This document shows positions 10,819-39,253 of a stretch of DNA of 64,000 bases, in pieces. This stretch comes from Dyella nitratireducens (GTDB taxonomy: Bacteria; Pseudomonadota; Gammaproteobacteria; Xanthomonadales; Rhodanobacteraceae). The position numbers and the translations under genes are program-made. Under the pieces are notes generated by a model, which was given only the letters and a program-made list of their open reading frames with translations, had not been told where the DNA came from and ran no database searches. Location of the stretch: assembly GCF_014642835.1 (NCBI RefSeq), contig NZ_BMJA01000001.1, forward strand, positions 849,263 through 913,262, read 5' to 3'. Position 1 is the stretch's first letter, and every line of letters starts with the position of its first letter.

Positions 10819-11433
10819 TTGAAACGATTCTTCGATGCCATGCGGCACAACCTTCCACGAAGCACGCCAGGCGCACTGTACGCATTGATTCTCATAACAG
10901 GATGCTCAAATGCCATGACAAGCCCCCATTTTCAATTTGGCGAAGGTGATGCGGTCCGCAATACGTTTCCGCTGAAGTTCAAAGAGCACAACTTCAGTGC
11001 ATTTTGCTACAACACCATTGGCTGCAAAGTGTTTTATGCGGGAATGTACATGACCCGAGATGACGACAATGAGAAGTCTCCGCCACCTCCGCCAGAGCTC
11101 CTAAAAAACATGCGCGCGGGGCATCTTGCCATCGATAATTTTCCGCCGCCCGCTATCGTTACGTGGCGTTCGCTGGACGGCGTAGCCCATGAGGCCAAGG
11201 TTGATATCGGGGCAATCTTCAAAGATCGACGTATTTTGCACCATGCTCCAGAACAGGAGATTCCTGCGGAAACAGCAGCACTTGATGGCGCCAATATCAT
11301 CCTTCTGGTGATCGATCGCACCATCAGTGTCTACATGAAAACGACGATCTATTTGAAGAAGCCTCGCGACCCATCGAATCCACTAAGCAATACATCGCAT
11401 GAAATGACTCTGGCTTACACCCACACCTACTGA
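10819..11433 (+). CDS. Predicted lipoprotein, candidate immunity protein
   Basis: I place the start at TTG 10819 because a near-perfect Shine-Dalgarno (AAAGGAGG, 10806-10813) lies 5 bases upstream. A longer in-frame start at 10789 lacks one. The 204-residue product has a basic N-terminus, a hydrophobic segment and a lipobox (LITGC, Cys29), so it should be a lipoprotein. The mature part contains NTIGCKVFYAGMYM and a proline run (PPPPPELL). I do not recognise the domain with certainty. It sits 17 bases before a DUF2235 hydrolase. Lipoproteins next to Tle1-type phospholipases are commonly their immunity proteins, so that role is inferred from context. Confidence 0.6.
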   Translation: MKRFFDAMRHNLPRSTPGALYALILITGCSNAMTSPHFQFGEGDAVRNTFPLKFKEHNFSAFCYNTIGCKVFYAGMYMTRDDDNEKSPPPPPELLKNMRAGHLAIDNFPPPAIVTWRSLDGVAHEAKVDIGAIFKDRRILHHAPEQEIPAETAALDGANIILLVIDRTISVYMKTTIYLKKPRDPSNPLSNTSHEMTLAYTHTY

Positions 11434-11450
11434 GCTCAAGGAACACAAGG

Positions 11451-13028
11451 ATGACCGAGAAACACAGAGTAGGTCCCGATGGCATTCTCGAAGACGGTAC
11501 TCGACTGATTCCAGTCACACGTCAGGATTTTGTGCTGTACGACCAGGCGCAGCAGTCGCTGAGTCATCTGTCGGCACCAGTACTTCTTCACACCGATAAT
11601 CCACATGAGCGCCTGTTTATTGCCAATTTTGACGGCACAGGAAACGATGCCGAACATGATCCCGGGCACATTACAACCATCGGTGTTTTCCAAAGCGTGC
11701 TGGAAACACTCACCAACCAAAACCCGCACATCGCATCTCAATATATTTCGGGACCCGGAACCCAATCTCATCTGTTGTCTCGCATTGCCGACAGTGCACT
11801 CGGCTACACCTACGACCGACGAGTTGAAACCATGTACGGCTTATTTATCCGCCAGGTTCGTCAATGGCGCGAAGAAGATCCCGATGTCCAAATCCGCGTC
11901 GTCGCCACGGGTTTCAGCCGAGGCGCCGAACAAGCCGCCGGCTTCACCCGCCTGGTGCACGAGCGCGGCATTCAAGATCCCGCAGGCGAAAAGATCCACC
12001 ATCATCTCTTCCGCTCCAACACTGTCACCTACAACACCCCGCCCCTGGTAGCACCCGGCCAAATCCCTCAAGCCGTCATACTAATCGATCCAGTCGGCAC
12101 CGGCCGTCCGCACAGCCGTGATCGCCAGCTGCCACCATCGGTAGTCTCCGGTTTCCAACTCACTGCGCGCGACGAACGACGTGATGCTTTCCCCGAAACG
12201 CTCATCATTCCGCTGGGAACTTCCGACGATGGTCGCTTTCTAGACGTCACCGTACCCGGCGCACATTCCGATCTGGGCGGCAGCTACCACCACGACGGCC
12301 TGGCCATTCTCAATCGCAACATGGCAGTGGATTATCTCAACGCGCTCAGCGATACGCCTTTGCTTCAGAAGCAGGCTGAGCCGCAGGACTTGCAACACTA
12401 CATGATCCACCGTTCGGAGGATCACCAGGTTTTCTACGGCACTCGGTACGTGCGCGAACACGGCGAACGCGCCGAGCGCGGTGTGCAAATCGGAGCCCCC
12501 GACTGCCGTGCGACCCTGGCGTGTTTGCCACCGGAGCCCGTCGATGCGGCCATGGCTGCACAGTTGGCGGATCGCCACCCGGTCAGCATTGCACCGCTAC
12601 CCTCGCCACCACAGGCGGTGTCGACACTTATGCAAACCGCCGTTGAGCCGCCTCTGGAACAACAACGATTACAGGAACTGCAACAGCTGCAAGAACTGCT
12701 GCGCTGGCAGAGACACCCGCACATGCACGACCAAGCCACATTACAGCAACGCGAACCGATGCAGGGAGTTGAAGCCGCCACCGCGCACCGCGTCGACGTC
12801 TCTGCCATCACCTCGCACAGCTCCATCGATGACATGTTCGAGGCGCTGTACCAAGCCACCGTCACAGAGGATCACGCAGCCATCAGCGCCGTGTCCCAAG
12901 CCTATCGGGAATCCCAGCATGGTCAGGCGTTTCTGCAGATGGGCAGGGATTACAACCAGCAACGCGAGATGGAGCAACAAACCATCCAGCAGAAGATGGT
13001 TCGCCAAGGGCCGGCCATGAGCCGCTGA
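11451..13028 (+). CDS. DUF2235 (Tle1-like) alpha/beta-hydrolase, candidate secreted effector
   Basis: The 525-residue product carries an N-terminal DUF2235 hydrolase domain (about 50-340), the fold of Tle1 phospholipase effectors. I see FDGTGNDAEHD (about 60-70), the nucleophile elbow GFSRG (Ser156), a likely acid in LIDPVGTG (Asp213) and a likely catalytic His in PGAHSDLGGSY (His272). The C-terminal 150 residues are glutamine-rich, including LQELQQLQELL and a DYNQQREMEQQ tail. Xanthomonad T4SS effectors have Q-rich tails behind an XVIPCD domain, but I do not see the hallmark XVIPCD motifs. Context makes it a candidate antibacterial lipase exported by the adjacent T4SS. Starts ATG with AAGGAACACAAGG upstream. 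Confidence 0.75.
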   Translation: MTEKHRVGPDGILEDGTRLIPVTRQDFVLYDQAQQSLSHLSAPVLLHTDNPHERLFIANFDGTGNDAEHDPGHITTIGVFQSVLETLTNQNPHIASQYISGPGTQSHLLSRIADSALGYTYDRRVETMYGLFIRQVRQWREEDPDVQIRVVATGFSRGAEQAAGFTRLVHERGIQDPAGEKIHHHLFRSNTVTYNTPPLVAPGQIPQAVILIDPVGTGRPHSRDRQLPPSVVSGFQLTARDERRDAFPETLIIPLGTSDDGRFLDVTVPGAHSDLGGSYHHDGLAILNRNMAVDYLNALSDTPLLQKQAEPQDLQHYMIHRSEDHQVFYGTRYVREHGERAERGVQIGAPDCRATLACLPPEPVDAAMAAQLADRHPVSIAPLPSPPQAVSTLMQTAVEPPLEQQRLQELQQLQELLRWQRHPHMHDQATLQQREPMQGVEAATAHRVDVSAITSHSSIDDMFEALYQATVTEDHAAISAVSQAYRESQHGQAFLQMGRDYNQQREMEQQTIQQKMVRQGPAMSR

Positions 13029-13052
13029 TTGCATTCGTCAAAAGGAACTCTC

Positions 13053-13598
13053 ATGTCTACATTGGAAGTCAAGGCGCTGGCACTGCAGCTCAGCACTGCC
13101 ATCGATGGAATGGAGAAGCGCATCGATCACGCCGCACGGCAATCGCTACAGGCAACCCGGGCGCTCGATCTGCAGTCGAAGCAATCGCTGGAAACAATCA
13201 ACAACCTCGTTCAACAAGCACTGGAGCAATTTCGCCAAGGCGCCAGGCAAGCGATCGAAGAAGGCGTTCGCGATGCCATGGGGGAACTCGATCAAGCGAT
13301 ACAGGAGGGCGCCAGCCGGATGGATCGTGCTGTCTCGCAACTGGACCAGCGCACGCAGCACATCGGTCGCTTCAACGTTTTACACGCGTGGAAGACTTTT
13401 GTTGCCAGCGCACTGTGCTCGCTCGCTGTCATTACGGTGGCCATCTACGCAGGGTGGCAAGCCCATACGGATATCAAGCGCTCGGAATGGGTGCAGCAGA
13501 TCAATGCTGCTGTCGAGGCCGGGCATTTGACGATCTGCCCAGAGGGTGGCCTGTGCGTGCAGGTGAACAGCAAGTGGGTGCGGTTGAGCGGCAAATAA
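13053..13598 (+). CDS. Coiled-coil protein with one membrane helix, unknown function
   Basis: The start at ATG 13053 (AAAGGAAC upstream) gives 181 residues. About 110 residues of amphipathic coiled coil rich in Gln, Ala and acidic/basic heptads (LDLQSKQSLETINNLVQQAL) are followed by a single membrane helix at about 122-140 (VASALCSLAVITVAIYAG). A short tail with CPEGGLCVQVN comes last. The layout resembles small mobilisation-associated or stalk proteins, but I cannot name a family. It is 25 bases behind the DUF2235 gene, so they probably share a transcript. Confidence 0.6.
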   Translation: MSTLEVKALALQLSTAIDGMEKRIDHAARQSLQATRALDLQSKQSLETINNLVQQALEQFRQGARQAIEEGVRDAMGELDQAIQEGASRMDRAVSQLDQRTQHIGRFNVLHAWKTFVASALCSLAVITVAIYAGWQAHTDIKRSEWVQQINAAVEAGHLTICPEGGLCVQVNSKWVRLSGK

Positions 13599-15320: not shown

Positions 15321-15437
15321 GGGCAAAGCGAAAGTCCATATCGTGGACTTCAGGAAGGAAGCCGCTTTTTTTCAAGCTTGCACTCCGCGGCAATAAGCCA
15401 GCGTACCCAATGAAGCCTTCACGCCCCTGTTCAACCA

Positions 15438-16187
15438 TCAACCGGAAGGCGTGCGCCGTCGGCGAAGCTGAGTGAATTCCGAAAATTCCCACCGGCGAAA
15501 CGCAACGACAGCACTGCACCCATCGCGAACATTCAGAGGAAGGCGGGCATCCAGGCGCGCCAATTGCTCGAATTCCTCGATAAGTCGAGCCATCGCTGCC
15601 TGCATCCGCGCACGCGATCCCTCAGACAGTGCTGCGCCGACAAAATGAAAGGCGTCGCCCGGGCCATCAAACCGCTCGCCAAAAAATTCCGGCAGTACGC
15701 GGGTGATAAAATAACGATGTACCGGCCCATCCTTGCGCCAGGAAAAGTTACGCGCAGTGAGCTTGCGAATGCGGTCAGGCGGACGATATTCGATGATCTT
15801 CAGTGCATCGAGCTTCAGAAGTAGCGAAACCAGTTCGTTTTCGTCGATCTTGAAGGTCGACATGATTTCGCTAAAGCGCCAGTTGTTGAGAATCAGATAA
15901 GTCGTTAGCAACAGCTTGGGGTCAGCAACCAGCGATGCCTCTTGCTTTTGGCTGAGTTCGGTAATGGTCACCCCAGTGACGCGCCCATTGCCGATCAGGT
16001 CTTCCAGGCTCAGGCCGAGAATTTCACAGATATCATCTAGCCGCTGCAGGCTAAAGCCGCCGCGGCTGAGATCACGCTTGATGGTGGGTTCGCTCACCCC
16101 GAGTTGGGCAGCAAGCTCGCGATAAGTGATACCGCGGTGGCGCAGCTCGGCACGAATGGATTGCACAAGAATGGCGGAAGCGGACAT
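15438..16187 (-). CDS. XRE-family transcriptional regulator
   Basis: The 249-residue product begins with a helix-turn-helix of the XRE/Cro type at about residues 8-60 (YRELAAQLGVSEPTIKRDL). A long C-terminal part has no domain I can name and may sense a ligand or oligomerise. It is divergent from the seven-gene biosynthetic-type operon starting at 16351. The shared 163-base intergenic region contains two GATA/TATC palindromes, one of them overlapping this start codon. That arrangement suggests it controls itself and the operon. Confidence 0.85.
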   Translation of the reverse strand: MSASAILVQSIRAELRHRGITYRELAAQLGVSEPTIKRDLSRGGFSLQRLDDICEILGLSLEDLIGNGRVTGVTITELSQKQEASLVADPKLLLTTYLILNNWRFSEIMSTFKIDENELVSLLLKLDALKIIEYRPPDRIRKLTARNFSWRKDGPVHRYFITRVLPEFFGERFDGPGDAFHFVGAALSEGSRARMQAAMARLIEEFEQLARLDARLPLNVRDGCSAVVAFRRWEFSEFTQLRRRRTPSG

Positions 16188-16235
16188 ATCAACATTCTTG
16201 ATACCAGATGATCACAAAGTATCATATTTCGATAC
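16187..16235. promoter_or_regulatory. Two palindromes, candidate operators of the XRE regulator
   Basis: TATCAACATTCTTGATA (16187-16203) and GTATCATATTTCGATAC (16219-16235) are 17-base inverted repeats with TATC/GATA half sites, 32 bases apart start to start. They lie between the regulator and the divergent ketosynthase operon. The first overlaps the regulator start codon. Operator function is inferred from symmetry and position. Confidence 0.5.
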
Positions 16236-16350
16236 CATGGAGATCGCGTTGCTGCCATTTGGAATCAGAGCATTGTTTGGCGGCAGTTGCCTGACGCAAC
16301 CTTAGTTCCGGCTGCTGATACGTCAGCAAACATGGAGGGGAACGACTTAC

Positions 16351-17346
16351 ATGCTATCGGTGCAAATACTGGGAACGGGGGAATACGTACCCACGCGCTG
16401 CGTCTATTCCTCAACGCTGGACGAGCGCTGGCATAAGCCCGCGGGCTGGACATCCCGGCACGCCGGCATCGAACGCCGCTATTACGCCACCGAGGATGAG
16501 ACCACCTCTCTGATGGCCGCGCGGGCAGCGCAAGCGGCACTGACGGCGGCCAGTCTCGAAGCTGGGCAGCTCGATTGCATCGTGTCGGCGTGCAGCGTGA
16601 TGGAGCAGGCCATTCCCTGCTCCGCGGCGCTTATCCAGCGACAACTCGGTTTGGGCGAAAGCGGCATTCCTGCATTCGACATCAACGCTACCTGCCTTAG
16701 CTTTCTGGCCGCGCTGGATACCATGAGCATGGCTATCGCTGCCGGCCGCTATCGCTACGTGCTCATTGTTTCCAGCGAAATCGCCTCAGCGGGATTGCGC
16801 GAAGACGATGCAGAAACCGCGATGTTGTTCGGCGACGGCGCCGGTGCGGTCGTGCTTGGGCCCACCACTGCACACAGCGGCACGGGCATCCAAGGCACTC
16901 ACTTCGAGACATACGCGATCGGCGCCGAACTCTGCCAAGTGCGCTCCGGTGGTACGCGCATCAGGCCGCGCAAGGATATGCAGGCGTTTCTGGATGGTGC
17001 GTGTTTCGAAATGCAAGGTCGTCATACCTATCGCATGGCGGCGCAGCGGCTACCGGCCTTCCTGGAGCGGCTGTTTACGCGTGCGGGCGTCTCGCTTAGC
17101 AGCATTGATCGCATCATCCCGCACCAGGCCAGTGCCAAGGCACTCGCGCATCTTGAAAACCTGCTCAAAGTGCCAGCCGGAAAACTGGTGAAGGTTCTCG
17201 CCGAGCGCGGCAATCAGATGGCAGCCTCGATTCCGGTGACCCTGCATCACGCCGTCGCTACCGGCAAAGTGAAGCGCGGTGACGCCATCGCTCTGATTGG
17301 CTCCGGCGCTGGGCTTTCGTTCGGCGGCGTCATTCTTACTTATTGA
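16351..17346 (+). CDS. FabH-like 3-oxoacyl-ACP synthase III family protein
   Basis: The 331-residue product has the thiolase-fold KAS III layout and length. The catalytic residues are all visible: Cys115 in DINATCLSF, His258 in IIPHQAS and Asn288 in ERGNQMAASIP. The C-terminal GSGAGLSFGGVIL is typical. These enzymes condense or transfer an acyl group onto an acceptor. This copy is not in a fab cluster but opens a seven-gene operon of specialised-metabolism type, so priming or acyl transfer for a small molecule is more likely than housekeeping fatty-acid initiation. GGAGGGG precedes the ATG. Confidence 0.9.
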   Translation: MLSVQILGTGEYVPTRCVYSSTLDERWHKPAGWTSRHAGIERRYYATEDETTSLMAARAAQAALTAASLEAGQLDCIVSACSVMEQAIPCSAALIQRQLGLGESGIPAFDINATCLSFLAALDTMSMAIAAGRYRYVLIVSSEIASAGLREDDAETAMLFGDGAGAVVLGPTTAHSGTGIQGTHFETYAIGAELCQVRSGGTRIRPRKDMQAFLDGACFEMQGRHTYRMAAQRLPAFLERLFTRAGVSLSSIDRIIPHQASAKALAHLENLLKVPAGKLVKVLAERGNQMAASIPVTLHHAVATGKVKRGDAIALIGSGAGLSFGGVILTY

Positions 17347-17347
17347 T

Positions 17348-18343
17348 ATGGCGCGCATTCTCGTCACCGGTGCATCGGGGTTTATCGGCTCGCATGTTGC
17401 ACGCGCGCTTTCGGTTGCAGGTCACGATGTACTGGCAACTGGCAGGGACGTTACACGGCTGGCCGGGTTCGCTATGTCACCCATCACGGTTGCTACGGCA
17501 GATATAGCAAGTGACCCGCTTGAAAAACTGGTGGCGAGTCGTGATGCCGTGGTCCATTGCGCCGCGTTGTCGTCACCCTGGGGCGCCCGCGGCGCATTTC
17601 AGCGCGCCAACGTCCATGCCACCGGGCGCCTGCTCCATGCTGCCCATGAAGCAGGTGTTGGGCGCTTCGTGCATCTGTCATCGCCCAGTATTTATTTCCG
17701 GCTGGCTGATCAGTTCAACATCCCCGAAGCCTTCACGCCGCCCAGACGATGGATCAATGCGTATGCGGAGACAAAGTGGCAATCCGAACAACGCGTGGCC
17801 GATACACGATACGCTGCCATGTCGCGCATCATCCTGCGCCCGCGGGCGGTGTTCGGTGAAGGTGATCGAGCCATCTTCCCGCGCATATTGAATCTGGCCA
17901 GGCGCGGCTGGTTTCCGCAGATCGGCAACGGCCAGGCGCTGATCGATACCACGTATGTGGGCAATGTCGCCGATGCCGTGGTCACCGCGCTATCGGTACC
18001 AGCCAACCCCACCACCAAGGTATTCAACATCACCAATGGCGAACCGATGCCGGTGCGCGAATTGTTGAATCAACTGTTCGCGGCGCTGGATATGAAAGTG
18101 CGATGGGTGCAGCTTCCCCGCCCGGTCGCCGTGACCCTCGGCACGCTGGCGGAAGGTATCGCACGCATTCGCCCCGGTCAGCCCGAACCACGTTTGAGCC
18201 GCTACGGCGTCGGCGTGCTCGGCTACACGCAGACCTTGGACATTTCACACGCGCGCACGGTACTTGGCTACCAACCACGCGTGTCGATCGATGAAGGCAT
18301 CCGGCGCTTCAGTCAATGGTGGAGAGCACATGGTCCACATTGA
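17348..18343 (+). CDS. NAD(P)-dependent epimerase/dehydratase (3-beta-HSD-like)
   Basis: The ATG at 17348, one base after the previous stop, gives 331 residues. The product starts with a Rossmann nucleotide-binding motif (VTGASGFIGSH) and has the extended-SDR YxxxK pair (YAETK, about residue 140) plus the HLSSPS strand. The C-terminal part resembles 3-beta-hydroxysteroid dehydrogenase/OleD-like sugar- or ketone-acting reductases. Following a ketosynthase, reduction of a beta-keto product is a reasonable inference. Substrate is unknown. Confidence 0.88.
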   Translation: MARILVTGASGFIGSHVARALSVAGHDVLATGRDVTRLAGFAMSPITVATADIASDPLEKLVASRDAVVHCAALSSPWGARGAFQRANVHATGRLLHAAHEAGVGRFVHLSSPSIYFRLADQFNIPEAFTPPRRWINAYAETKWQSEQRVADTRYAAMSRIILRPRAVFGEGDRAIFPRILNLARRGWFPQIGNGQALIDTTYVGNVADAVVTALSVPANPTTKVFNITNGEPMPVRELLNQLFAALDMKVRWVQLPRPVAVTLGTLAEGIARIRPGQPEPRLSRYGVGVLGYTQTLDISHARTVLGYQPRVSIDEGIRRFSQWWRAHGPH

Positions 18344-19157
18344 GTGGCGAACTTACGAAGCTGGCCACTGCGTGCATCCACAAGGCAGTACGCGTCGCGG
18401 TAGCCCCTGGAAAATGACCTGTTTTCCTGCGCTGACCTTTCTGCTGCGCCATCCAACATTCGGCGCCATGTTGTTTGATACGGGTTACTCGCAACACTTT
18501 TTCGACGCGACACACCGCCTACCCGAACGTCTCTATCGCGCGATAACGCCGCCGCGTCTTGGCGAAAAGGAAAGCCTCCACAATCAGCTCGATCGTGATG
18601 GCATCGCATCGCACCATATTGCCGCCGTCATGCTTTCGCATCTGCATGGTGACCACATGGGTGGGCTGCACGACTTTCCGCATTCAACCATTCTGTGCTC
18701 GCGCGAAGGATGGAATGACCTGCGCGCGCATAGCCGGTTTGGCGCACTCAAACGAGGGCTTCTACCTGCCCTGCTGCCGGCCGATTTCGAACAGCGGGTG
18801 CAGTGGATTGAAGATCTGTCGCCTGTCGCACTATCCGATGCCTTCGCGGAATTCCAGACCGGCTACGACCTCTTAGGTGACGGCAGCATGTTGGCCATCG
18901 CTTTGCCGGGACATGCCGCTGGCCACTATGGCCTGTTGTTCCAGGCATCGAACGGTGAGCAGGTGTTTCTGATTGCCGATGCGGCATGGTCTTCCCAGGC
19001 ATTGCTCGACGGCATTCCGCCTCCGGGCATCGTGACATCCTGGCTCGGCGATACGCCTTCGTATCTCGCCACGCTGGCACGCCTGCAGCGGCTGCGGCAA
19101 TCCGACCCTGCCTTGCGCATCGTCCCTTCGCATTGCGAAGAGCATCGACCGCCATGA
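18330..19157 (+). CDS. Metallo-beta-lactamase-fold hydrolase
   Basis: The start at ATG 18330 overlaps the epimerase end by 14 bases. The 275-residue product has the MBL metal motif SHLHGDHMGG (His104, His106, Asp108, His109), a later LPGHAAGHYG with a likely metal-binding His, and IADAAW as the bridging Asp segment. It resembles AHL-lactonase/glyoxalase-II-like members. In this operon it could release a thioester or lactone intermediate, which is inference. No signal peptide is evident. Confidence 0.88.
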   Translation: MVHIEWRTYEAGHCVHPQGSTRRGSPWKMTCFPALTFLLRHPTFGAMLFDTGYSQHFFDATHRLPERLYRAITPPRLGEKESLHNQLDRDGIASHHIAAVMLSHLHGDHMGGLHDFPHSTILCSREGWNDLRAHSRFGALKRGLLPALLPADFEQRVQWIEDLSPVALSDAFAEFQTGYDLLGDGSMLAIALPGHAAGHYGLLFQASNGEQVFLIADAAWSSQALLDGIPPPGIVTSWLGDTPSYLATLARLQRLRQSDPALRIVPSHCEEHRPP

Positions 19158-20479
19158 ATCGGTTGAAGGATGCGATAGCTGTAGCGTTGCATTACCTGTC
19201 GGCGCGACGGCTGAAGCGCTTGCGAACGCGTGAGCAGATCGAAGCACATCAGCAACACCGCTGGCAGATGATGCGTACGCGCATCGCGAACGCTTCTCCC
19301 TTTTACGCCGCTTACCGGAACCTGCCGTTGGCGCAATGGCCGCTGATGGAAAAGCACGAATGGATGCAGCACTTCGACACCATCAACACAGCCGGCATCA
19401 CGCTCTCACAGGCTTATGCGCTGGCGGAGCGCGCCGAGCACACGCGCGATTTCCGGCCGGCCCTAGGCGATATCAGTGTCGGCCTGTCCACGGGCACATC
19501 CGGCGCACGGGGCGTGTTCCTGGCCAGCAGCGCTGAGCGCCATCGCTGGGCGGCAACCATGCTTGCCAAACTGCTGCCTGAGGGATTGCTGGCACGCGAA
19601 CGCGTAGCGCTGCTACTGCGCGCAGGCAGCAACTTGTACGACACGATGCATGGCGCCCGGCTGCAGTTCCGCTATATCGACCTGCTTCAGCCGTTCGACA
19701 CGGTGCTGCGGCAACTGGAAAACTATGCACCAACCATCCTGGTAGGCCCGGCGCAGGCGCTGGTTCTGGTGGCCCGCGCGCCACGGAACGGTGGCGCACG
19801 TATCACACCGCGTCGTGTCATCTCTGCGGCAGAAGTACTCGATCCAATGGATCGCGCAGAAATGGAGCGTGCATGGGGAATTCGGATCGAACAGATCTAC
19901 CAGGCTACCGAAGGCTTTCTCGGCCAGACCTGCATGCATGGCGCGATCCACCTCAACGAGGACTGCATCATCGTCGAGCACGACTGGGTCGACCAGGCGC
20001 ATCGCCGCTTCGTACCGATCATCACTGATCTTTACCGTTTTACGCAGCCGGTGATCCGTTATCGCCTCAACGACATTCTGGTGGAGAGCGCCGCTCCCTG
20101 CCCCTGCGGCTCGCCGCATATCGCGCTGGAACGTATTGAAGGACGTGAGGACGATATCGTTTGGTTGGGCAACGAAACGAATACCAGTCTCGTACCTGTT
20201 TTCGCCGATAGCCTTACACGAGCCATATTGAATGCCGATCCGGCGATTCAGGATTATCAAATCGAGCAGCGCGATGCGAATACGTTTGCTATCGCCGTTG
20301 AACCGGCACCCGATGCCGCTCGCCAGCAGGCCATCCGCCTCGCGCTAAACGCCTTTTTCTCGACACTTCGAATGCCTATGCCGATCATCATGTTTTGCGA
20401 CATGCCCAAGCGTGAGCTCGGCAGCAAACGACGGCGAGTACGCGGCCTACCAGCCTTGCGAGACCGAAAGCATGCGTAA
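19154..20479 (+). CDS. Phenylacetate-CoA ligase / F390-synthetase-like adenylate-forming enzyme
   Basis: The ATG at 19154 overlaps the previous stop (ATGA), giving 441 residues. Adenylation features are visible: the STGTSG loop (112-117), YQATEG (249-254) and a DLYRF...RYRLND segment in which Asp and Arg contact the nucleotide. CPCGS near the C-terminus matches the F390-synthetase-related branch. Such enzymes activate carboxylates with ATP. A longer open frame beginning at 18986 overlaps the MBL gene and is not needed. Confidence 0.85.
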   Translation: MNRLKDAIAVALHYLSARRLKRLRTREQIEAHQQHRWQMMRTRIANASPFYAAYRNLPLAQWPLMEKHEWMQHFDTINTAGITLSQAYALAERAEHTRDFRPALGDISVGLSTGTSGARGVFLASSAERHRWAATMLAKLLPEGLLARERVALLLRAGSNLYDTMHGARLQFRYIDLLQPFDTVLRQLENYAPTILVGPAQALVLVARAPRNGGARITPRRVISAAEVLDPMDRAEMERAWGIRIEQIYQATEGFLGQTCMHGAIHLNEDCIIVEHDWVDQAHRRFVPIITDLYRFTQPVIRYRLNDILVESAAPCPCGSPHIALERIEGREDDIVWLGNETNTSLVPVFADSLTRAILNADPAIQDYQIEQRDANTFAIAVEPAPDAARQQAIRLALNAFFSTLRMPMPIIMFCDMPKRELGSKRRRVRGLPALRDRKHA

Positions 20480-21629
20480 GGTGTTTATTCTCGGAGGACG
20501 GTCGCCTGTGGCGCTCGATCACACTCGACGCTTCGCTGCGCAAGGTTGGCAAGTCATCGTCGGCGACAGCGTGCCGTGCCGGATTTCGACTTGGTCGCGC
20601 GCAGCGCATGCAAGCGTGGCACTGCCATCAGCGCGATATGGTATTCGCGAGTATGCACGCGCACTGAATCGAGTGGTAGACGCTCATCAGATCGACCTGG
20701 TGCTGCCTACGTGTGAGGAGGTGTTTTACCTGGCCCGCGCTCGCCCTGCACTACCGCGGCAGGTGCGCATTCTGGTGGACGACTTCGACATGCTCGCGAC
20801 GTTGCACAGCAAGTGGCGCTTTCTGGAAGCAGCCCAGGACTGTGGCGTGATCGTTCCGGAAAGCGCCCTTGTAAACAGCATTGATGAAGCGCACGAATGG
20901 GCCAAGGACCGTCCGGTAGCGATCAAACCGGAATTTTCGCGTTTCGGCGTGCACGTGCGCCTGTATCCCGACGGCATTCCACAGGATGCACGACCGTTCG
21001 AACTGGACACGAAGTGGGTCGTGCAATCGTATTGCCGAGGCAAGGAATTGTGCTCCTACAGTGTCGTCGATCAGGGGCGCGTATTGGCGCACGTCACCTA
21101 TCGGCCAAGCTATCGCATCAACGCCAGCTCCAGTTACGTGTTTGAGGTGTGCAACGCGCCGGGCATTGAAGCATTCGTTGAAAGCTTTGCACGCAAAATC
21201 CGCTACACCGGCCAGTTGTCATTCGATTGGATCGAATCCGACCAGGGCAGCTACCAGGTACTGGAGTGCAATCCGCGTGCGATCAGCGGCGTGCATCTGT
21301 TTGCCATGCATGATGCTCTGCCAGCTGCCTTGATGGGCGAAGCGGATGCCTGCATCAAGCCCAGCCTCATAGAAATGCGAATGATTGCAGCGGTGATGCT
21401 GGCGGCCGGTGTATGGCAGCCGTTACGACAACGACCGCTGGGCGAATGGTGGCGCGATTTCCAGGGCGCTCGTGATGTCATTGCGATCAAGGGTGATCGC
21501 ATGCCTCTGCTTGGAGGCCTGCTGGATCTTGTATCGTACGCACGCATCGCCGTACAGCAACGATGCACCATGCGACAGGCATCCACGCGCGACACCGAAT
21601 GGGACGGCGAGGCACTCGATACGCCATGA
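20472..21629 (+). CDS. ATP-grasp superfamily ligase
   Basis: Start ATG 20472 overlaps the previous stop by 8 bases. The 385-residue product begins with a Rossmann-like pre-ATP-grasp domain (VFILGGRSPVAL). It then shows ATP-grasp elements: the lysine strand VAIKPEFSRFG, VVQSYCRGKELCSYSVV and the metal-binding LECNPRAISG. These enzymes join a carboxylate to an amine or similar nucleophile through an acylphosphate. In this cluster it may couple an acid to an amino compound. Confidence 0.85.
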   Translation: MRKVFILGGRSPVALDHTRRFAAQGWQVIVGDSVPCRISTWSRAAHASVALPSARYGIREYARALNRVVDAHQIDLVLPTCEEVFYLARARPALPRQVRILVDDFDMLATLHSKWRFLEAAQDCGVIVPESALVNSIDEAHEWAKDRPVAIKPEFSRFGVHVRLYPDGIPQDARPFELDTKWVVQSYCRGKELCSYSVVDQGRVLAHVTYRPSYRINASSSYVFEVCNAPGIEAFVESFARKIRYTGQLSFDWIESDQGSYQVLECNPRAISGVHLFAMHDALPAALMGEADACIKPSLIEMRMIAAVMLAAGVWQPLRQRPLGEWWRDFQGARDVIAIKGDRMPLLGGLLDLVSYARIAVQQRCTMRQASTRDTEWDGEALDTP

Positions 21630-22741
21630 CCGTGCTACCGGATGTCTCGCTGGATGAATTCAATGCACGGGCTGCAGCATTTCTCGCACTGCACCGGCAG
21701 TCGCCCAGCGAGTCGCTTATCAAAAATCTGCACACTCGTGTCGAATCGATCAGCGCGGGTAATGCGTGCTTACCCGTCACCGTCAACCATGCCGAAACCG
21801 ATAATGCGTGGGTGTGCTCGCCCTACACGACTTACTGCAGTTACGCGATCGAGGAAACGGCCAGGCTTGGCCGTCCCGTGCTTACCCGGCCGTTGAGCAG
21901 ACTCATCCATTGCATGGGAGCACTATTGAAACGGGCCGAGATCGACCGCGCTGTCGCGATAAACAACTGGCTCGTATCCACGAATTGCTATCCACGCCTG
22001 CGAGACGTGGACATCGACCAGGCGATCGATGAGGCCAAATCGCGTTGGCCAGATCACGCTATCTGGTTCCGATCGCTCAATGCAGCGCATCACGCGGATT
22101 GGCTGCACGCATTGGCCGATCGCGGCGGCATGCTTCTACCAAGCCGACAGGTTTATCTGTTTGAAAACATCGCCGAGCTGGTCAGACAGCACACGGACTT
22201 AAAGCGCGATATTTCTCTTTTACGACGTAAAGATGGCTTCGTGTGCGAACGAATATTGGATAACGAAACGGATTTCGTGCGCGCCGAAGAGCTCTACGAC
22301 GACCTCTACATCCAAAAGTATTCCCGCCTTAACCCGCAATATCGTCACCCGCTGATCATGGCATGGAGTAAAGCCGGCTTGCTGCAACTATTCGGCTTGC
22401 GCGATACCGCTGGGATTTTGCAGGGGGTCGTTGGTTTGTTCGCTTTCGGCAACCTGATTACGTCCCCCATCGTGGGCTACAACACCCATCTTCCGCAGAA
22501 AGTCGGCCTTTATCGCAGACTGGCTGCCTGCGTGCTGCGCGAAGGGGCCACGCATGGACGACTGGTCAATCTCAGCGCAGGTGTTGCGCATTTCAAGCGT
22601 CAACGCGGCGGACGGCCCGCGCTCGAATACAGCGCCGTACTGGTCGACCATCTGCCGCCGCACAGACGAAGAGCCATCCAGGCGCTGGGTTTCCTGACGC
22701 GAAATATCGGTATTCCCATCATGCGGAAATTCAAACTATGA
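21626..22741 (+). CDS. GNAT/FemAB-like acyltransferase, putative
   Basis: The ATG at 21626 overlaps the preceding stop (ATGA), giving 371 residues. The C-terminal half (about 210-370) looks like an acyl-CoA/ACP N-acyltransferase fold of the GNAT or FemAB type, with LLQLFGLRDTAGILQGVVG as a beta-strand pair and VNLSAGVAHFKRQRGG near the end. No canonical acetyl-CoA loop stands out, so the family is uncertain. Tight coupling to the ATP-grasp and Rieske genes implies the same pathway. Confidence 0.65.
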   Translation: MTVLPDVSLDEFNARAAAFLALHRQSPSESLIKNLHTRVESISAGNACLPVTVNHAETDNAWVCSPYTTYCSYAIEETARLGRPVLTRPLSRLIHCMGALLKRAEIDRAVAINNWLVSTNCYPRLRDVDIDQAIDEAKSRWPDHAIWFRSLNAAHHADWLHALADRGGMLLPSRQVYLFENIAELVRQHTDLKRDISLLRRKDGFVCERILDNETDFVRAEELYDDLYIQKYSRLNPQYRHPLIMAWSKAGLLQLFGLRDTAGILQGVVGLFAFGNLITSPIVGYNTHLPQKVGLYRRLAACVLREGATHGRLVNLSAGVAHFKRQRGGRPALEYSAVLVDHLPPHRRRAIQALGFLTRNIGIPIMRKFKL

Positions 22742-23757
22742 GCGCCTGGGCTGCACATCTGGAGCATCGCTGGTTTGCCGTGGCGCTGGCGGCGAAGATC
22801 GGGCGCAAACCGGTGCGGGCCATGTTGCTCGATCGGCCCATCGTACTTGCGCGCCTGAACGGCCAGCGCGTGGCAGGTTTTCAGGATCGCTGCCCACATC
22901 GTCATGCACCGCTTTCCCAGGGGCGGGTGATCGACGGCACGCTGCAATGTCCGTATCACGGCTGGCGTTTCGACGAGCGAGGCAAGCTGCAGGAGTTGCC
23001 CGGCGCACCACCGGGTACTTGTATGCCGGGCGTACACGCACGAGCGATTTCCGTTGTTGAGTATGACGGCTTGATCTGGGTGCGCTACGCCAAGGAGGGC
23101 GACGAGGATATTCCCGCTCGCGTTCGCGCACTCGCACCGGGCGATCGGAAGTTTCTGTGGCAGACGACCTGGCACGCGCATATTGTGGATGCACTGGAAA
23201 ACGTGCTCGATCCATTGCACACCCATTTCGTGCACACCGGCCTGGTGCGACGAAAAGCTGCCAGACAGTCGATGCAGGTCAGCCTGCACGCAGATTCGGA
23301 AGGGTTTGTGGTGGATTATGTTGGCCAGAGTACACAATCTGGACTTCTGTACCGTCTGTTCGAATCACCGCGCGAAAGCGAGCGCGCCTGTTTTAGCGCT
23401 CCCGGTACGGCACAGCTCAACTATCACTACCGCAACGGCAGCCGCGCATGCATTTCGCTGCACTTCAGTCCGGAAACAACGGACCGGACGCGTCTGACTG
23501 GCATGCTTCATCTCGAAGGACGGCGCGTTCCAGCATGGATGGTGAGTGCATTCGTGTGGCCCTTCATCCGCAAAGTCGCCCAGCAGGATCAACGCATGCT
23601 CGCGATGCAGATAAGCAACAGCCGGATATTTCCCGACCGGAAGGATGTCATCACACGCTTCGACGTGGTGCGCAAACATCTGCTTAGCGCATGGAGCAGT
23701 CCGGAAGACGCAGCCGCCTATCCGCTCGGCGACTGCGAGACGACCCTCATGCTTTGA
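22738..23757 (+). CDS. Rieske 2Fe-2S aromatic-ring-hydroxylating-type oxygenase
   Basis: The 339-residue product has an N-terminal Rieske domain with CPHRHAP (Cys52, His54) and CPYHGW (Cys71, His74). A C-terminal mononuclear iron site follows in DPLHTHFVH (Asp158, His161, His166), with the bridging Asp expected nearby. This matches the oxygenase alpha-subunit family including PaO and VanA types. No reductase or ferredoxin gene is adjacent, so it must borrow electrons from elsewhere. As the last gene of the coupled operon (4-base overlap), a late hydroxylation is likely. Confidence 0.9.
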   Translation: MSAWAAHLEHRWFAVALAAKIGRKPVRAMLLDRPIVLARLNGQRVAGFQDRCPHRHAPLSQGRVIDGTLQCPYHGWRFDERGKLQELPGAPPGTCMPGVHARAISVVEYDGLIWVRYAKEGDEDIPARVRALAPGDRKFLWQTTWHAHIVDALENVLDPLHTHFVHTGLVRRKAARQSMQVSLHADSEGFVVDYVGQSTQSGLLYRLFESPRESERACFSAPGTAQLNYHYRNGSRACISLHFSPETTDRTRLTGMLHLEGRRVPAWMVSAFVWPFIRKVAQQDQRMLAMQISNSRIFPDRKDVITRFDVVRKHLLSAWSSPEDAAAYPLGDCETTLML

Positions 23758-23774
23758 TCGGTACGGCTGGACCG

Positions 23775-24161
23775 CTATGCCGCTTGATGACACACCGCTT
23801 CAATATTGTGCCCATCCGGATCCAGCACGTACGCAGCGTAATAATGCTCGTGGTAATGCGGCCGAACGCCCGGCGCACCATTATCGCGGCCACCCGCAGC
23901 CATGGCCGCCAGGTAGAACGCATCGACCATCGCACGGGTTTCTACACGAAATGCCACGTGGATGGCCGGCTGATTGGGCACACCTTTGCTGATCCAGAAA
24001 TCCGGCTTGGGCGGCTCACCGAACCCGGCCACATCGGTGTAGCCCGTTACGGAGGCTGGGAATTCCATCAATAACGCGTAGCCAATGGCGGAGAGCGCCT
24101 TGACGTAGAACGCCTTGCTCTTTTCGAAATCACGTACAGAGACACCGGTGTGATCGATCAT
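23775..24161 (-). CDS. VOC-family (glyoxalase-fold) protein
   Basis: Start ATG at 24161 has AGGAG upstream, giving 128 residues. The product has the glyoxalase/bleomycin-resistance fold: MIDHTGVSVRDFEKSKAFY at the start, and YYAAYVLDPDGHNIEAVCH with the metal-binding Glu at the end. Substrate is not predictable. It is convergent with the Rieske gene and heads a small-enzyme run with the next two genes upstream. The open frame extends further 5-prime into the neighbour but without support. Confidence 0.85.
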   Translation of the reverse strand: MIDHTGVSVRDFEKSKAFYVKALSAIGYALLMEFPASVTGYTDVAGFGEPPKPDFWISKGVPNQPAIHVAFRVETRAMVDAFYLAAMAAGGRDNGAPGVRPHYHEHYYAAYVLDPDGHNIEAVCHQAA

Positions 24162-28606: not shown

Positions 28607-28969
28607 GTCAGGGGGCCGTATTCAGGTCAGGGGTCAAGGGATGATCTGATGAGTTCTGCGTAGGCGGCATGATGTCCAGAAGGCCCGCAGGGTGTGTTGC
28701 GTGGCGCAGAGCAGACTGGCCGTCTGTTCAAGTCGCGCGGCGCAGCCTGCGGGCCTTCTGGACATCACCCTTCGGGCCGGCACTGTCCGTCCGCATACCT
28801 TCGGCCCATCGTCTCGACAGACGGCCAGTCTGACTTCGCCGATGGTCCTGTGGTCTGCGAACGGACAGTGCCGGTGACGCCCACGCAGAACTCATCAGAG
28901 CATCCCGAAGTCTGCCCAATCCAGCCCTTAACGTCTATCATTGGACGTTTCTTCAAGCTCAGGTTGGCC
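28607..28969. repeat. Intergenic stretch with four interleaved inverted repeats
   Basis: No gene is supportable here. Four inverted pairs are visible: 28646-28666 with 28879-28899 (20 of 21), 28670-28691 with 28746-28767 (22 of 22), 28712-28727 with 28817-28832 (16 of 16) and 28779-28795 with 28856-28872 (16 of 17). Their order is A B C b D c d a, so B, C and D cross each other while A encloses all. Each arm of pair C can also fold on itself (CAGAC, 5-base loop, GTCTG). The purM promoter must lie in or beside it. Confidence 0.8.
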
Positions 28970-29998
28970 ATGTCCGACGCCCTTACCTACCGCGCCGCAG
29001 GCGTGGATATCGATGCCGGCAATGCCGTGGTCGAACGTATCAAGCCGCTTGTGAAGCGCACCTTTCGTCCGGAGGTGATGGGCGGACTGGGCGGCTTCGG
29101 CGGCCTGTTCAACCTGGGCACGAGCTACAAGGAGCCGGTGCTGGTCTCAGGCACCGACGGCGTGGGCACCAAGCTCAAGCTGGCTCAGCAGTTGAACCGC
29201 CACGACACCATCGGCATCGACCTGGTGGGCATGTGCGTGAACGACGTGCTGGTGCAGGGCGCCGAGCCCTTGTTCTTCCTCGACTACTTCGCCACCGGCA
29301 AGTTGGACGTGGATACCACCGTGGCCGTGGTCGGCGGTATCGCCAAGGGTTGCGAACTGGCCGGCTGCGCGCTGATCGGCGGCGAAACCGCCGAAATGCC
29401 CGACATGTATCCGCCGGGTGAATACGACCTGGCCGGTTTCACCGTCGGCGCGGTGGAAAAGGAAGCGTTGCTCAGTGGCGACAGTGTCGTAGCCGGTGAC
29501 GTGATCCTGGCTGTGGCGTCGTCCGGCCCGCATTCCAATGGTTATTCGCTGATCCGCAAGATCGTCGAACGCGCAGGCAACCCGCTGGAGCTGGACCTCG
29601 GTGGCGTGAAGCTGGCCGATGCGCTGATGGCACCGACCACGATCTATGTAAAGCCGGTGCTGGAACTGCTGAAGTCTGTGTCTGTGCATGGCATGGCGCA
29701 TATCACCGGCGGCGGCCTGAAAGAAAACATCATCCGCGTGGTGCCGGATGGCCTCGGCCTCAAGCTTGATGCCTCCGCCATCGTGCTGCCGCCGGTGTTC
29801 GATTGGCTGATGCGCGAGGGCAAGGTTGCACGCGAAGAGATGTGGCGCACGTTCAATTGCGGCGTGGGCTTTACCGTGTTGCTGCCGCGTGATGCGGTGA
29901 GTGCGGCGTCGGCATTGCTGGCCAAGCATGATTTGAAGAGCTGGGTGATTGGCGAGGTGGTGCAGGCACAAGCGGACGAGCGCGTGCATATTGGTTGA
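28970..29998 (+). CDS. purM: Phosphoribosylformylglycinamidine cyclo-ligase PurM
   Basis: PurM makes aminoimidazole ribonucleotide in purine synthesis. I chose ATG 28970; the frame extends upstream through the inverted-repeat region but that part is not PurM-like. The 342-residue product has [46 protein letters not shown] and [14 protein letters not shown], all family signatures in order. Length is normal. purN follows after a palindromic repeat. Confidence 0.96.
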
Positions 29999-39037: not shown

Positions 39038-39163
39038 TTACTCCCTCCCCTGCTTGCAGGGGAGGGCCGGGGCGGGGTTGCATGGGCTTGCCACATAGAT
39101 TGAGTTCAACGCGAGATTCGCTTCACCCCACCCCAACCATCCCCTACTGCACGTAGGGGAGAG
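39038..39163. repeat. Palindromic repeats between hpf and hprK
   Basis: CCTCCCCTGCTTGCAGGGGAGG (near 39044-39065) and CCCCTACTGCACGTAGGGG (near 39143-39161) are two hairpin-forming units of a CCCTCTCC/GGAGAGGG type family. Related units occur at 57123-57145 and 63641-63663. They fill the place where ptsN is found in xanthomonads. Confidence 0.7.
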
Positions 39164-39253
39164 GGCAAAAAACCCGCCGCTTCGTCCAAACTGGCACAAT
39201 GTTCCCCGCCGCCGCCCTCTCCGAGGCAGCCACGCGGCGCAAAGGGAACTTCC

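Follow-up and report, generated by a model that had tools for sequence, protein, structure and literature searches.

The window analyzed here is a stretch of 64,000 nucleotides from the 5.68-Mb genome of Dyella nitratireducens (assembly GCF_014642835.1, contig NZ_BMJA01000001.1, 849263-913262). Positions are window coordinates unless they follow the L-number of a compared locus. The plus strand contains seven enzyme genes with overlapping or nearly touching ends (16351-23757), which form a putative biosynthetic operon, and a divergent gene on the minus strand encodes an XRE-type regulator. The features are as follows.

15438-16187, minus strand: XRE-type regulator (HTH_26), assigned by family search
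16198-16225, plus strand: predicted promoter-like sequence TTGATA-16-TATCAT, 10 of 12 consensus positions
16219-16235: palindrome GTATCN7GATAC, proposed XRE operator, covering the predicted -10 hexamer
16351-17346, plus strand: ketosynthase III (KS), ACP_syn_III, MxnB/CorB-like
17348-18343, plus strand: extended short-chain dehydrogenase/reductase (SDR), Epimerase/3Beta_HSD, OleD-like
18330-19157, plus strand: metallo-beta-lactamase (MBL)-fold hydrolase, Lactamase_B, lactonase-like
19154-20479, plus strand: F390 synthetase-related adenylating enzyme (TIGR02304), resembling phenylacetate-CoA ligase (PCL)
20472-21629, plus strand: ATP-grasp ligase (PRK06849-like)
21626-22741, plus strand: Fem/MprF-like double-GNAT transferase (gene 6), assigned by predicted fold
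22738-23757, plus strand: Rieske oxygenase with a VanA_C domain

Counted from stop to next start and in gene order, the six junctions measure +1, -14, -4, -8, -4, and -4, and the last five lengths are identical in all five complete eight-gene loci, window included. The seven gapless, coupled genes described in an earlier sequence-only reading are thereby borne out. All eight genes (the regulator and the seven enzymes) occur in the same order in four other loci from Rhodanobacteraceae (L002, L003, L004, and L005), with 52-82% identity. The regulator itself is 67-82% identical in these four loci and 71% in L053, while no XRE match was found in the stretch examined of L031. Both L031 and L053 contain the other six enzymes without a Rieske match. 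Locus L001 is truncated by the end of its contig, which begins inside the SDR gene, and L052, L054, L055, and L056 were taken as repeats of L004, L003, L002, and L001, respectively, and counted once.

The same reading had assigned the operon its own XRE regulator with palindromes, taken there as a hint of induced expression; the divergent gene is present and adjoins a rare, conserved palindrome at the operon start. The palindrome has an expectation of 0.01 per window. The genome holds two copies, the second inside a 168-codon reading frame, and one copy of the reversed control pattern. It is retained between the XRE and KS genes in L002-L005, and one arm is degenerate in L053. Promoter-like sites number three within 15400-24000, which is not above shuffled sequences (mean 3.5). 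Lying over the predicted -10 box, the palindrome points to the XRE protein as a repressor, in the simplest reading one with a single target.

Among 233 genomes of the family, nine contain a TIGR02304 protein above cut-off. A Fem-like profile and an ATP-grasp profile both pick out one set of eight genomes, which lies wholly inside these nine (hypergeometric probability of the Fem/ATP-grasp co-occurrence 5e-15, a value that ignores relatedness, with six of the eight matching genomes having supplied the profiles). This co-occurrence draws its information from the 225 genomes that match neither profile and from the two matching genomes that supplied no profile. The ninth genome (G042, locus L030) encodes the KS, SDR, MBL, and F390-type genes, hereafter the core, but PAP2 and fatty-acid hydroxylase genes take the place of the ATP-grasp and Fem-like genes. 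These data support the view that the operon is one co-inherited unit with its own regulator and proposed operator.

Synteny with same-genus genomes begins at 23786-23788 in three of four cases, just past the Rieske stop codon, and only at 24181 in L069. To the left of this point, the operon region is unmatched in the four same-genus stretches compared; L067 gave a single 127-base match to window positions 39041-39167. TIGR02304 is absent at 1e-30 from 15 other genomes of the genus. The left boundary of the non-syntenic block was not found. Composition gives no strong sign of transfer, with a dinucleotide delta of 51 for the operon against a window range of 22-71, and the GC content at third codon positions is 0.63-0.70 in the operon vs. 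0.77 in the open reading frame at 28694-29998.

Beyond the family, the core is found in Ketogulonicigenium, Paracoccus, Escherichia coli, Burkholderia, Paraburkholderia, and Pseudomonas megaplasmids, as well as in Paenibacillus, Pontibacillus, Fusobacterium, and rhizobia. Any two of the four single-gene trees of the core, each built for 30 loci, have 17-19 of 27 splits in common, and label shuffles reach at most three. Not eligible for these trees were L001, L024 (PCL-like and ATP-grasp genes only), and L023 and L029 (ATP-grasp and Fem-like genes only); the trees do not include L037, and the SDR of L033 was entered as one of its two pieces. The conserved order across loci, the shared splits, and the low expectation of the palindrome place the gene arrangement beyond chance. 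The trees point to co-inheritance of the core across Pseudomonadota, Bacillota, and Fusobacteriota, and the window operon is one variant around a widespread core, not an isolated curiosity. TIGR02304 is widespread but patchy, exceeding its cut-off in two of 369 genomes of a class-level draw and seven of 398 of a phylum-level draw (own genome counted).

The E. coli relative (L020:6191-13072) has genes for a PAP2 protein, a fatty-acid hydroxylase, and a desaturase behind its core, whose proteins are 34-41% identical to those of the window. With the L020 cluster as query, 672 of the 5426 complete E. coli genomes searched gave a match, which spans 80% or more of the query in 671. Of the 673 places matched, 671 are chromosomal; in L020, a plasmid record, the cluster follows narGHJI. 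No XRE match was obtained in L020 with tblastn, and a narrow search of the open-licence literature returned no description of this E. coli cluster.

The genes around the core vary in position. The ATP-grasp gene lies on the opposite strand in Rhizobium BT03, Shinella, and Roseateles, and behind the KS gene in Paenibacillus and Pontibacillus. Loci L033, L059, and L060 combine ATP-grasp and Rieske genes with no Fem match, and Paraburkholderia L018 carries all seven genes, of which the Rieske gene (11264-12281) is matched in two reading frames and is thus probably broken or misread. That the accessory genes are reshuffled yet retained argues for a shared pathway.

Some further arrangements were observed. 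In Fusobacterium vincentii (L034:3270-10204), the core runs in the order SDR, MBL, F390-type, KS; ahead of it stand a family-21 glycosyltransferase, ceramide glucosyltransferase-like, and another SDR, which weakly matches a mycolate reductase. On the Pseudomonas megaplasmids (0.90-0.97 Mb), the core is contiguous in L026 and scattered in L025, and L024 has the F390-type gene only, with an ATP-grasp gene. Both Shinella (L036:13425-14663) and Roseateles XES5 (L037:13459-14697) have genes for a MerR-type regulator and a glutaredoxin-like protein next to the cluster.

The residues checked in the operon enzymes, which we take to be catalytic by analogy with their families, are invariant in every aligned row, and the earlier description of intact active sites holds. 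In the KS, the Cys-His-Asn triad (C115/H258/N288) is invariant in all 30 sequences aligned. Its nearest solved structures are MxnB (1.8e-62) and CorB (1e-59), followed by the best FabH-type structure (2.3e-48). A housekeeping FabH identity was rejected: the KS scores 234 bits against the TIGR00747 cut-off of 292, and another gene of the genome, a separate fabH distinct from the operon KS, scores 433. The earlier reading had also set the operon apart from dar, aryl polyene, and siderophore clusters; these were compared at the level of family matches, where the DarB model yields only 38 bits. At the position of the glutamate of OleA (E117) and PpyS (E105), all 30 KS have I or L. This position was located through the KS-MxnB alignment and V94 of MxnB, to which the glutamate corresponds according to an excerpt of PMC4578411. 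As the glutamate base of OleA is missing, we propose that the second substrate is already activated (malonyl- or beta-ketoacyl-type).

The kinship with MxnB and CorB also raises a two-chain, pyrone-type route as in myxopyronin, in which the KS would join two beta-keto chains and the other enzymes would reduce, activate, and decorate the (opened) ring. MxnB does join two long chains, via two tunnels, as described in an excerpt of PMC5724707. We nevertheless judge this route distinctly improbable for the operon, given that neither polyketide modules nor carrier proteins are encoded nearby and that the SDR adjoining the KS suggests reduction ahead of ring closure.

The top NCBIfam match of the SDR is OleD (212 bits, under the equivalog cut-off of 580). 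Among solved structures it is closest to MoeE5 (1e-17), then to sterol-4-alpha-carboxylate 3-dehydrogenase, and its Y139 and K143 are invariant in 30 of 30 sequences. The nearest solved relatives of the MBL enzyme are acyl-homoserine lactonases and 4-pyridoxolactonase, and its HxHxDH motif, H195, D217, and H268 are invariant (19/19). An identity as acyl-homoserine lactonase was rejected on the AttM (75 bits, cut-off 390) and AiiA (61 bits, cut-off 375) models, although the HxHxDH metal site is present. The F390-type enzyme passes TIGR02304 with 426 bits (cut-off 251.9) and has phenylacetate-CoA ligases as nearest solved relatives; eleven adenylation-motif positions, K425 among them, are invariant in the 19 sequences aligned.

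With such partners, the core could follow a convergent beta-lactone/olefin-type route, with the KS, SDR, F390-type, and MBL enzymes in the roles of OleA, OleD, OleC, and OleB: a beta-hydroxy acid would be adenylated, closed to a beta-lactone, opened by the MBL enzyme, and decorated by the ligases. The SDR matching OleD best and the MBL enzyme standing nearest to lactonases agree with this, and the F390-type enzyme and OleC are both adenylate-forming. On the other hand, the OleA glutamate is absent from all 30 KS, the OleB and OleC families are absent from the operon, and we know of no beta-lactone formation by a PCL/F390-type enzyme, which leaves the route possible but unlikely. The operon was earlier said not to be an ole cluster, and this was confirmed: an ole identity fails on the KS glutamate, on the OleB and OleC families, which are replaced here, and on the OleD cut-off (212 vs. 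580).

The ATP-grasp protein scores 319 bits against PRK06849, below the cut-off of 406, with weak matches to AMdnB and carbamoyl phosphate synthase among solved structures; K114, K152, D252, E265, N267, and R269 are invariant in 14 of 14 sequences. The Rieske protein matches both PF00355 and PF19112 (VanA_C) over cut-off, with SxtDIOX/SxtT, NdmA/B, and DdmC as nearest solved relatives. Its cluster ligands (C52/H54/C71/H74) and mononuclear iron site (D158/H161/H166/D284) are invariant in all seven sequences. Since the MBL enzyme falls within the quorum-quenching lactonase group, and degradative pathways often employ Rieske oxygenases and CoA ligases, we also weighed a role of the operon in catabolism or signal degradation, with turnover of lactones or amides. 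It seems very improbable: ligases of the ATP-grasp and Fem types form bonds instead of breaking them, the KS has its full triad and is distinct from fabH, and core neighbors elsewhere include a desaturase, a sulfotransferase, and a glycosyltransferase. The two ligases and the complete KS led us to set it aside.

Gene 6 has no Pfam match at 0.01 and no useful sequence match in the PDB, and two of 12 homologues compared match the generic GNAT family Acetyltransf_6. Its predicted model adopts a double-GNAT fold with the streptothricin enzymes Sbb17/Sba18, FemX, and MprF as best structural matches, at about 12-14% identity. This model favors assigning the product to the fold of aminoacyl-tRNA-dependent transferases over calling it acyltransferase-like. 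Of the families named in the sequence-only reading, that of gene 6 is the one corrected.

To compare the genes that accompany the core, accessory-gene probes from L020, L021, L027, L034, L036, and L038 were searched against the 30 loci. An ATP-grasp match lies nearby in 18 loci. Lipid-type probes find matches next to the core in nine, which all belong to the 12 loci without a nearby ATP-grasp gene. Loci L020, L030, L035, L061, and L063 contain PAP2 and fatty-acid hydroxylase genes (and, except for L030, a desaturase gene), L021 and L027 a sulfotransferase, L034 the family-21 glycosyltransferase and SDR, and L038 a DUF3419 protein. The accessory hydroxylase resembles the ornithine-lipid hydroxylase OlsE, and DUF3419 is linked to BtaA of betaine lipids. 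As the lipid probes derive from some of the tested loci, the independent matches are only L030, L035, L061, L063, and the L021/L027 pair. Because lipid probes match inside the cluster only where no ATP-grasp gene is near, the two kinds of module look like alternatives. Their alternation, together with the Fem/MprF fold of gene 6, favors an acyl backbone that takes a polar head, here amino acids.

We tentatively propose, at slightly less than even confidence, that the core marks an undescribed, widely transferred class of lipid-like metabolites, in which the core would build the backbone and exchangeable modules the head group. For the window operon itself, the reading we favor, again just short of an even chance, is an amphiphilic small molecule with a core-built acyl chain and an amino-acid head of one or two residues added by the later enzymes. 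The substrates, step order, product class, and repression are our inferences, and the chemistry is read from the gene families. The KS would condense an acyl thioester with another, already activated thioester of the malonyl or beta-ketoacyl type, the SDR would reduce the beta-keto group, and the MBL enzyme would hydrolyze a thioester or lactone to give a beta-hydroxy acid. The F390-type enzyme could convert this acid to an acyl-AMP or acyl-CoA, from which the ATP-grasp ligase would form an amide, either an amino acid or an amine being the partner. The gene 6 product may then transfer an aminoacyl group from aminoacyl-tRNA, and the Rieske oxygenase would hydroxylate or desaturate the product late in the pathway, a step that could be dispensed with. 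Repression of the operon by the XRE protein would act through the palindrome on the predicted -10 box.

Several observations weigh against this proposal. In the fold search with gene 6, Sbb17 is tied with FemX and other double-GNAT enzymes reach 13-14.7, and a common fold proves no function. Neither an ATP-grasp gene nor a lipid probe match is near the core in L026, L032, and L062, and the clusters of the 18 ATP-grasp loci contain no lipid-type neighbor (weak matches are a 28% hydroxylase about 2.5 kb outside the cluster in L003, and SDRs in L019 and L059); the lipid inference is thus carried over from other variants. Two Deinococcus plasmids carry the ATP-grasp/Fem-like pair (L023:9001-11258, L029:9001-11249) with the core not nearby. 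Finally, we saw no gene for an acyl carrier protein, an exporter, or a tRNA within the operon; tRNA genes are absent from the window as a whole.

If the proposal is right, four genes would serve as a signature that predicts a class of compounds in three phyla, and an MxnB/CorB-type KS would be paired with aminoacyl-tRNA-dependent head-group attachment, a pairing we did not find in the literature searched. The head groups would be amino acids here, attached by ATP-grasp and Fem-type ligation, and sulfate, a sugar, or 3-amino-3-carboxypropyl elsewhere, or the variation would consist of hydroxylation or desaturation; about one in eight complete E. coli genomes would encode a so far unstudied member of the class. 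The signature would also make testable what TIGR02304 ("F390 synthetase-related") enzymes activate outside methanogens, and the operon offers a compact handle of seven genes, one predicted promoter, and one candidate repressor.

Elsewhere in the window, the gene at 11451-13025 encodes a protein with a Tle1-like phospholipase domain of the type VI secretion system, followed by a small gene at 13029-13598 without a Pfam match; the two products are possibly an effector and its partner.

An "F390 synthetase" gene is mentioned within a fatty-acid-type cluster of D. psychrophila (PMC2649909) and appears in tables of two other papers, and different operons combining ATP-grasp ligases with a Rieske protein are described in PMC2922099. 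Narrow searches of open-licence full texts, which are no proof of absence, returned no account of the present gene set. The families are individually known, and it is their combination, and the core with swapped modules, that appear undescribed within the literature searched. Compared with FemX, MprF, and Sbb17/Sba18, gene 6 shares the predicted double-GNAT fold but at the low identity given above, and it is soluble, without the membrane part of MprF. The myxopyronin and corallopyronin enzymes MxnB and CorB share with the operon KS the Cys-His-Asn triad and a hydrophobic residue at the glutamate position, whereas the operon KS has SDR, MBL, and F390-type partners and no polyketide synthase context. 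The E. coli L020 cluster has the four-gene core in the same order, yet it carries lipid-modifying genes where the operon has ATP-grasp, Fem-like, and Rieske genes, and it lacks the regulator match. OleABCD likewise combines condensing, reducing, and adenylating enzymes with a hydrolase, and the operon SDR matches OleD best. In the operon, however, the KS is without the OleA glutamate, an MBL enzyme replaces OleB, an F390/PCL-type enzyme replaces OleC, and ATP-grasp, Fem-like, and Rieske genes are added. By its sequences, the operon is best described as a small KS-based biosynthetic operon, ole-like in its presumed logic and outside ole in its enzymes.

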